Shown here in pieces: positions 15,105 through 16,195 of a DNA stretch of 64,000 nucleotides (within the stretch, counting starts at the first letter, position 1; each line of letters begins with the position of its first letter). The notes below the pieces were generated by a model. That model worked only from the letters and a program-made list of their open reading frames with translations. It searched no databases and was not told the origin of the DNA. Both the position numbers and the translations under genes were made by a program. The stretch lies in contig NZ_PDDM01000020.1 of assembly GCF_002914585.1 (NCBI RefSeq), forward strand, positions 1-64,000, in the 5' to 3' direction. This stretch comes from Pseudanabaena sp. BC1403 (GTDB taxonomy: Bacteria; Cyanobacteriota; Cyanobacteriia; Pseudanabaenales; Pseudanabaenaceae).

Positions 15105-15869
15105 TTACCATTTAGAGGGATTATTGGGATGCAGTTGGTCAACCTGCCATAAATTTGGGTTTGTTTGGATATACTGGCGAATCTTTTGTAATGATGTTTC
15201 ATCGCGAATGATATGCTCGTGATAATTGCGCTGCCACACAGGAATTCCTGATGTATGACGAATCTGGTTAATGTGGCGAGCAGAGAATGTTTTAAATCCG
15301 CGAATAATTTCTGGGATTCCATGATTGTTCTCTGTTGCAAAATTCTTTGTAGGGGCGGTTTTTGCAGGAATTGAGATTGTGTAGGGGCGGGTTTTGCAGA
15401 TAGATCCTGCATTCAGCACAAAATTATCAGCTAAACCCGCCCCCACGGTATCGTATAAATCTTTGTTATTAAGTGCAGAATTATCTGTTAAACCGTTTGT
15501 AGGGGCGGGTTTTGGAAATGGATTTTGGTTCTCAAGGATGAAATTGTCTGCTAAACCCGCCCCTACAGAATTGTCGTGATCCAGAGAAATATCATTGTTA
15601 TCTATCAAAAATAGAATGCCGTGGACGTGGTTGGGCATTATGACAAATTCATCTAATTCCAATCTGGGATGGTATTTAGGTAAGTTTTGCCAATGGGTAT
15701 AGACGATTTTTCCATATTGATTTAACTGCATTTCTCCATCACTAATTGTTCCAAATAGGCATTCTCGTTGAAAAGTACAAATGGTGATGAAATAACTGCC
15801 TACAGATGAATAGTCGTATCCTTTGAGCCGAATAGAGCGACGATGGTGTTTTTCGCGATCGTATTTCAT
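15105..15869 (-). CDS. REP-associated tyrosine transposase (RAYT), with internal translated repeats
   Basis: A 254-residue Y1/HUH enzyme of the IS200/IS605-related RAYT group. It opens HHRRSIRLKGYDYSSVGSYF, the HUH histidines are in MPNHVHGI (His81, His83), and the C terminus holds VWQRNYHEHIIRDE and the probable catalytic-Tyr segment RQYIQTNPNLW. RAYTs are single-domesticated transposases that handle REP palindromes rather than themselves. Unusually, residues about 93-180 are translated GTAGGGGCGGGTTT repeats: VGAGLADNF occurs twice and KPAPT/KTAPT also recur, making the protein longer than typical relatives. Further copies of the repeat lie just upstream (15919-16188). Whether the enzyme stays active with this insert is unknown. 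Confidence 0.85.
   Translation of the reverse strand: MKYDREKHHRRSIRLKGYDYSSVGSYFITICTFQRECLFGTISDGEMQLNQYGKIVYTHWQNLPKYHPRLELDEFVIMPNHVHGILFLIDNNDISLDHDNSVGAGLADNFILENQNPFPKPAPTNGLTDNSALNNKDLYDTVGAGLADNFVLNAGSICKTRPYTISIPAKTAPTKNFATENNHGIPEIIRGFKTFSARHINQIRHTSGIPVWQRNYHEHIIRDETSLQKIRQYIQTNPNLWQVDQLHPNNPSKW
15381..15446. repeat. GTAGGGGCGGGTTT inverted-repeat element inside the RAYT gene
   Basis: GTAGGGGCGGGTTTTGCAGA at the left and CTAAACCCGCCCCCAC at the right, about 66 bp. It lies in the reading frame and is translated. Confidence 0.75.
15499..15566. repeat. Second in-frame GTAGGGGCGGGTTT element
   Basis: The same arms as the preceding element, about 68 bp, again translated. The spacing from the first and the loss of no stop codon suggest stepwise in-frame insertion. 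Confidence 0.75.
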
Positions 15870-15884
15870 GGCATTATCAAGATT

Positions 15885-16195
15885 GTGTAGGGACAGTTTT
15901 TGCAGATATCGAGATTGCGTAGGGGCGGGTTTCGCAGATAGATTTTGCTTTTAGTACAGAATTGTCAACTAAACCCGCCCCTACAATATTAACAATTAAA
16001 CCCGTCCCTACAATACGGTTCCAACATCATTCCGAAACCGTTGCGATCGCCCAAAATATTATTATCTGCAATCCCCAAATCCTCGGTAGGGACGGGGTTT
16101 TGCGGAAAGTGATATTGATTGCGTAGGGGCGGGATTTGTAGATAGATTTTGCTTTAAGCATAAAATTGCCAACTAAACCCGCCCCTACAGTCCCC
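15885..16195. repeat. Cluster of GTAGGGGCGGGTTT repeats upstream of RAYT
   Basis: Two full inverted-repeat elements at 15919-15984 and 16124-16188, and partial copies between (AAACCCGTCCCTAC near 15999, GTAGGGACGGGG near 16087). I see no gene in this stretch. It is the natural substrate cluster expected next to a RAYT. Confidence 0.75.

Follow-up and report, generated by a model that had tools for sequence, protein, structure and literature searches.

The 254-residue RAYT (REP-associated tyrosine transposase, of the TnpA-REP type of Y1 HUH enzymes) of Pseudanabaena sp. BC1403 is encoded by an uninterrupted open reading frame on the minus strand at 15105–15869 and contains an in-frame insert of 74 residues derived from REP repeats of the family that surrounds the gene. 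Positions refer to the window, that is, the whole stretch of 64,000 nt that was analysed (contig NZ_PDDM01000020.1). The reading that we prefer, with a probability of about 0.82, is frame-neutral, repeated self-insertion of the RAYT's own REP family into a tolerated, disordered linker. REP doublets of the surrounding family would have entered, on more than one occasion, the stretch that codes for the linker from beta3, which directly follows the HUH motif, to helix alphaC. Only insertions that together kept the frame and brought in no stop codon would have survived, since purifying selection acts on the core enzyme; the encoded residues would be a disordered linker, tolerated by the enzyme and almost free to drift in sequence. 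The evidence is computational and comprises the inserts, their kinship with dispersed repeats, their in-frame inheritance in three genomes, predicted disorder and relaxed constraint.

The gene product scored 26.9 bits against Pfam Y1_Tnp (cut-off 23) and matched NCBIfam REP_Tyr_transpos at E 2e-17, with 63.4 bits in two stretches, below the cut-off of 80. Two RAYTs of the genus that have no insert likewise fall slightly below this cut-off (77.9 and 78.5). A profile match to PDB 4er8, a TnpA-REP, was obtained at E 3.5e-7, and the predicted fold matched the ISDra2/IS608 transposases (best 1.9e-5) and 4er8 (1.7e-4). The rmsd of these fold matches is poor, since the disordered insert is included in the alignment. 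The protein has the HUH motif, His81-Val-His83 (15621–15629, minus strand), and the single tyrosine of the Y1 fold, Tyr233 (15171–15173, minus strand), which is presumed to be catalytic by the rule of the family; His81, His83 and Tyr233 are invariant in 78 aligned RAYTs including this one. GTAG REPs flank the gene on its 5' side. Because of the motif, the flanking REPs and the 4er8 match, the gene was assigned to the RAYTs despite its sub-cut-off NCBIfam score.

The REP-derived insert covers residues 101–174 (15348–15569, minus strand) of the beta3–alphaC linker, with the HUH motif before it and the tyrosine helix after it, within a stretch of residues about 93–182 that has no predicted core structure; the initial annotation had traced residues about 93–180 to repeats, in good agreement with these limits. 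Doublet 1 (15499–15566, minus strand, 68 nt) reads VGAGLADNF...KPAPT, has arms complementary over 14 nt and is related to the repeat family at BLAST E 1.2e-9 (hairpin z −5.04). Doublet 2 (15381–15446, minus strand, 66 nt; BLAST E 8.4e-15, hairpin z −7.06) reads VGAGLADNF...KTRPY and has one foot GTGG instead of GTAG; its 3' arm is in a different frame from that of doublet 1 (TRPY versus PAPT). Of the two peptides reported beforehand as translated repeats, VGAGLADNF is thus present in both doublets and KPAPT in doublet 1 only. The segment between them (15449–15495, minus strand, residues about 126–140) resembles by eye about half a doublet and is probably a decayed remnant, clearest in the ortholog of genome G004 (see below). 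A single arm at 15349–15362 on the plus strand, with one mismatch to the 14-mer used as a search pattern, gives KTAPT when read on the minus strand. With doublets of 68 and 66 nt, it is the whole insert that keeps the frame, which runs intact through at least two full insertions, as had been proposed.

Upstream of the gene, where several more copies had been noted, two doublets and three single arms were found, up to position 16188, when as many as three mismatches to the 14-mer were allowed. The doublets, each of 66 nt and given no strand, lie at 15919–15984 (hairpin z −5.67) and 16123–16188 (z −4.79). The single arms lie at 15998–16011 (minus strand, one mismatch), 16086–16099 (plus strand, two mismatches) and, as a weak match directly upstream of the start codon, 15887–15900 (plus strand, three mismatches). 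All four doublets at the locus are strong single-strand hairpins (in round figures z −5.0, −7.1, −5.7 and −4.8), compared with z −1.25 and +0.15 for two other stretches of the RAYT gene. The exact 14-mer occurs at 11 sites in the 5.51-Mb genome, six of them at the RAYT locus, as against none for the same pattern read backwards, which rules out a chance origin of the repeats at this locus. At up to two mismatches, 74 sites stand against 49 for the control across the genome; isolated weak matches elsewhere therefore carry little meaning. The possibility that the insert is unrelated to the repeats was ruled out by the in-gene arms and by their BLAST kinship with dispersed copies. As in REPINs (GTAG REP doublets), the family is made up of palindromic units with a GTAG foot that stand in inverted pairs and are scattered through the genome.

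Matches to the protein at 1e-10 were found in 18 of 26 Pseudanabaena genomes, and the long insert was found in three of the 26: BC1403 itself (G000) and two others, G004 and G014. Orthologs with the same insert in frame are thus present in two of the 25 other genomes of the genus (90% in G004, 86% in G014). The insert is collinear in all three, with a sole indel of 6 nt. The gene is syntenic in G004, with a MTHFR-like neighbour (94%) and a TPR gene (52%) in common, and in G014 it has one neighbour, on one side, in common. Among 24 distinct full-length RAYTs of the genus, the loop measures 91–93 aa in these three, 17 and 20 aa in two and 5–7 aa in 19; the comparison with RAYTs lacking the insert that the initial annotation had called for thus shows short loops in 19 of the 21 others. 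No ortholog without the insert was found in the genus genomes searched, so that the insertion event itself is unseen. In G004 the upstream doublet (L244:3454-3600) lies within the open frame of the RAYT gene, 307 codons from stop to stop, and a longer N-terminus is therefore possible in that genome.

Of 38 genomes of the order, 10 contained the repeat element at E <= 1e-4. With both strands counted, G014 had at least 24 rows (37 candidates, of which 24 were scored), G000 had 10 and G004 had 7; seven further genomes of the genus, in which no insert-bearing RAYT was detected, had one to six rows each. The association of the inserted RAYT with the repeat family is therefore suggestive and not strict. 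Foot and stem of the family were found at three of the 24 RAYT loci of the genus, some of which stop at contig ends, and these three are the ones with the insert. Together with the relation of the doublets to dispersed copies, this supports the proposal that the RAYT was invaded by its own repeat family. An insert shared by all relatives and unrelated to intergenic repeats had been named as the contrary outcome; the insert found here is present in three of the 26 genus genomes and is repeat-related.

The 26 dispersed copies recovered from G014 have an average likeness of 0.904, compared with 0.82–0.86 in other genomes (two to five copies each). G014 has a single RAYT, and the expansion of the family beside it suggests that the inserted enzyme putatively works. 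The preferred reading supposes that the RAYT of the window would mobilise these REPs and may still be active with its insert; further Y1-type genes in G000 that could mobilise the repeats count against this. The two in-gene copies of G014 are 0.76 and 0.79 alike to the dispersed ones, values that rule them out as the source of the dispersed copies or as copies kept alike with them.

Selection on the length and frame of the element, the second possibility raised in the initial annotation, is not supported as a property of the element, and selection for a length divisible by three was rejected: 29 distinct doublets measure 64–68 nt, and their lengths modulo 3 are 0, 1 and 2 in 14, 2 and 13 cases. 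The dispersed copies examined also lie nearly all outside open reading frames. Among 28 element loci, an ORF of more than 30 codons on both sides was found at four, all inside RAYT genes, and of 24 loci of G014 a single one had 20 or more codons of open frame to each side. Across many RAYTs, a bias in the frame of the REP foot (discussed below) leaves part of this second possibility open.

The insert and the core of the gene evolve differently. Nei–Gojobori (NG86) dN/dS was calculated for 72–74 codons of insert and 173 codons of core in the three related genes, whose pairs are not independent, and was 0.69 in the insert and 0.20 in the core for G000–G004, 1.94 and 0.18 for G000–G014, and 1.00 and 0.39 for G004–G014. 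Changes at codon positions 1/2/3 numbered 7/5/7, 9/8/4 and 9/7/5 in the insert and 7/4/19, 13/5/24 and 10/7/17 in the core, for the pairs in the same order (Fisher p 0.086, 0.0066 and 0.089, again for non-independent pairs). In these three orthologs, and on small numbers, the frame of the insert is kept and its amino acids drift nearly freely; purifying selection on the transposase probably keeps the frame of the gene. In the AlphaFold model, block pLDDT is 38–61 across residues 91–180, 131 residues reach at least 90 and most of the core exceeds 90, and residues 94–184 have no assigned helix or strand. The structure modelling proposed in the initial annotation thus predicts a disordered insert between beta3 and alphaC, and predicted disorder and near-free drift favour its tolerant surface loop over a selected element. 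The linker presumably has no role of its own.

RAYT loops were surveyed more widely in the genus and the order, in 292 genomes sampled from the phylum, of which 46 matched at E <= 1e-40, and at 80 named loci. The named loci are the best 80 of 172 found with an insert-containing query and may favour long loops and the Val-Gly frame. Duplicate genes, broken genes and genes truncated at the end of a contig were removed, which left 72 of the 80 named loci; 165 unique full-length proteins remained, of which two without a recognised Trp motif were dropped, and 130 of the resulting 163 had loops of at least 16 aa. The DNA of 58 of these 130 long loops matched its own locus outside the gene at E < 1e-3, compared with 4 of 130 core segments of the same length (L143, L168, L191 and L194) and 8 of 130 loops set against the flank of another locus. 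By source, the flank-matched loops were 28 of 72 named (spread over 11 phyla), 2 of 5 from the genus and 28 of 53 from other cyanobacteria; at least one of the 58 matches (L091) adjoins a second RAYT gene, so that some may be gene copies.

Foot frames were counted in 128 long loops, a set without the two orthologs of the RAYT of the window. The first base of GTAGGG falls at codon position 1/2/3 in 49/7/0 instances (4.3 in all expected by codon shuffling) and that of CCCTAC in 2/54/42 (5.0 expected), so the foot is read mostly as Val-Gly or as Pro-Thr/Pro-Leu. The absence of GTAGGG at position 3 is trivial, since TAG arises there. For position 1 against position 2, 45 REP units in loops are divided 40 to 5, and 45 noncoding units in flanks are stop-free in 42 and 36 in the two readings; stop codons alone therefore do not account for the bias. 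When one foot was counted per loop, the ratio was 50 to 7 overall; for the loops with a flank match it was 22 to 6 (p 0.012 versus 42:36). As the query for the named loci itself holds the insert, frames were recounted in loops found with an insert-free profile (53 long loops, from the sampled genomes of the phylum and from the remainder of the order), and the ratio in these other cyanobacteria was 17 to 2 (p 0.002).

The bias suggests more than plain tolerance and to this extent counts against the preferred reading. One alternative is that the amino-acid reading of the insert is itself selected, REPs being accepted only in frames that yield a linker rich in Gly, Ala and Pro. The strong bias of both feet in spite of nearly equal stop-free noncoding readings, and its persistence in the same direction with the insert-free profile, speak for it. 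The dN/dS of the insert near 1 speaks against it, as does window doublet 2, which has the rare TRPY reading, and a fixed target phase would also explain much of the bias. Shared ancestry inflates the foot-frame figures and may explain much of the bias: on a quick RAYT tree with good support on 40 of 160 inner branches, parsimony with equal costs of gain and loss gave 22 gains of the first frame and 7 of the second, and with cheaper losses the first, common frame needed 3–5 gains and 26–31 losses. On balance we regard selection of the reading as improbable, though it is the strongest of the alternatives.

The bias may thus come from a fixed target phase, from rejection at the protein level or from ancestry. 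The first foot lies 8–10 codons past HxH in many loops and 5–6 codons past it in ten, which fits a preferred insertion site. A tentative wider interpretation, to which we give rather low odds, is that REPs land in the RAYT linker again and again and are filtered there for a particular reading, the foot being found across phyla mostly in the Val-Gly and Pro-Thr/Pro-Leu frames; either they would enter in a fixed phase just after beta3, or the enzyme would reject the other reading. If so, the REP would be shaped both as a substrate and as a building block of its own transposase. Should the bias hold in a larger, tree-corrected sample, the choice between a fixed phase and a protein-level filter would become testable.

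Much less probable than selection of the reading is a working hairpin, in which the in-gene REP, as gene or mRNA, would be bound by the RAYT for autoregulation or as a substrate linked to the gene of its enzyme. The in-gene doublets do retain strong folding, REPs recur at the same linker across many RAYTs, and RAYTs bind single-stranded REPs according to PMC8266576. Nevertheless, the feet of doublet 2 are decaying (GTGG in the window, GATG in G014), doublet 1 has an arm mismatch in G004, the in-gene copies of G014 are not kept alike with its dispersed ones, and other RAYTs of the genus manage without an in-gene REP. That the gene is a decaying pseudogene, open by accident, would agree with its low scores against the general models Y1_Tnp and REP_Tyr_transpos and is scarcely credible in view of the core dN/dS of 0.18–0.39, the intact HUH motif and tyrosine and the frame that is open in three genomes.

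Frame-neutral self-insertion of REPs into a RAYT gene has been in print since 2018, and the present case is a clear new example and not a new kind. Subclass 2.4 of tnpA-REP genes, abundant in Cyanobacteria and Bacteroidetes, is described as containing REPs, generally between HuH and Y, that leave the frame undisrupted and that form a peripheral extension in the authors' model (Quentin et al., 2018; PMC6006769); as given there, it includes RAYT group 4 of Bertels et al. (2017). The RAYT of the window has in-frame REPs between HuH and Y and an extension of variable length between beta3 and alphaC, and its assignment to subclass 2.4 rests on these two features as described in that paper. It is likewise a cyanobacterial HUH-Y enzyme with flanking REPs, and no difference in kind from the published description was seen. 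What is added to that description is the comparison of three orthologs, the measured relaxation of constraint in the insert and the count of foot frames. Neither foot frame nor dN/dS was found in the portion of PMC6006769 consulted (the paper has 'reading frame' a single time and 'codon' 0 times), and a partial literature search found no other published account of REPs inside RAYT genes; the foot-frame bias may be the single new part of the findings. The case also offers a natural experiment, in which a transposase tolerates what is apparently its own substrate and three orthologs inherit the insert in frame while its amino acids drift.

The GTAG foot, the G+C-rich stem and the inverted pairs beside a RAYT recall REPINs and GTAG REP families (PMC3733652; see also PMC3116915); the present REP occurs both beside and within the RAYT, and the likeness to the cyanobacterial families GTAG-15 and GTAG-16 is one of description. 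Di Nocera et al. (2013; PMC3733652) treat GTAG REPs, including cyanobacterial families and intragenic REPs, and recognition and cleavage of REPs, with GTAG as a likely guide, is described in PMC8266576. PMC3733652 also covers Rickettsia palindromic elements and further REPs within genes, which are similar in being in-frame palindromic repeats in presumably tolerant places. However, the Rickettsia elements occur in many unrelated protein genes, unlike the present in-frame copies with a long ORF on either side, which were seen at one site at most apart from the RAYT.

There is also a practical aspect: the domain is interrupted by the insert, and a genus-wide search with PF01797 at 1e-5 listed none of the three inserted RAYTs (on contigs G000:C20, G004:C36 and G014:C1); as a RAYT finder in the genus, this model mixed in other Y1 genes and missed the inserted ones. 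G014 has no PF01797 hit at 1e-5 at all, and annotation with PF01797 may overlook inserted RAYT genes.

A second arm set, GTAGGGGCAGGTTT, is dispersed in G000, with 18 exact sites among the one-mismatch rows and many inverted pairs. No RAYT for the second, CAGG-stem repeats of this genome was found by a pattern search, their foot being present at 0 of 21 other RAYT loci of the genus. A second RAYT of G000 (L028:800-2300, contig C30) lies amid repeats of another stem, of the GGGGTAGAGCATT type, and has a 5-aa linker and no insert; flanking repeats by themselves therefore do not fill the loop.

In Oculatella sp. LEGE 06141 (L097:787-1408), an in-gene doublet of 72 nt is identical, in inverted orientation, to a doublet beside the gene and is a very recent insertion or conversion. 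An Elusimicrobia locus (L098:2754-3476) has arrays with a period of 66 nt (22 codons) both before the RAYT and in frame within its linker. In addition, the linkers of L105, L110 and L116 contain short in-frame tandem repeats (unit of 27 nt in L105:3276-3410), a pattern suggesting that they lengthened by slippage or recombination once the insert was in place.
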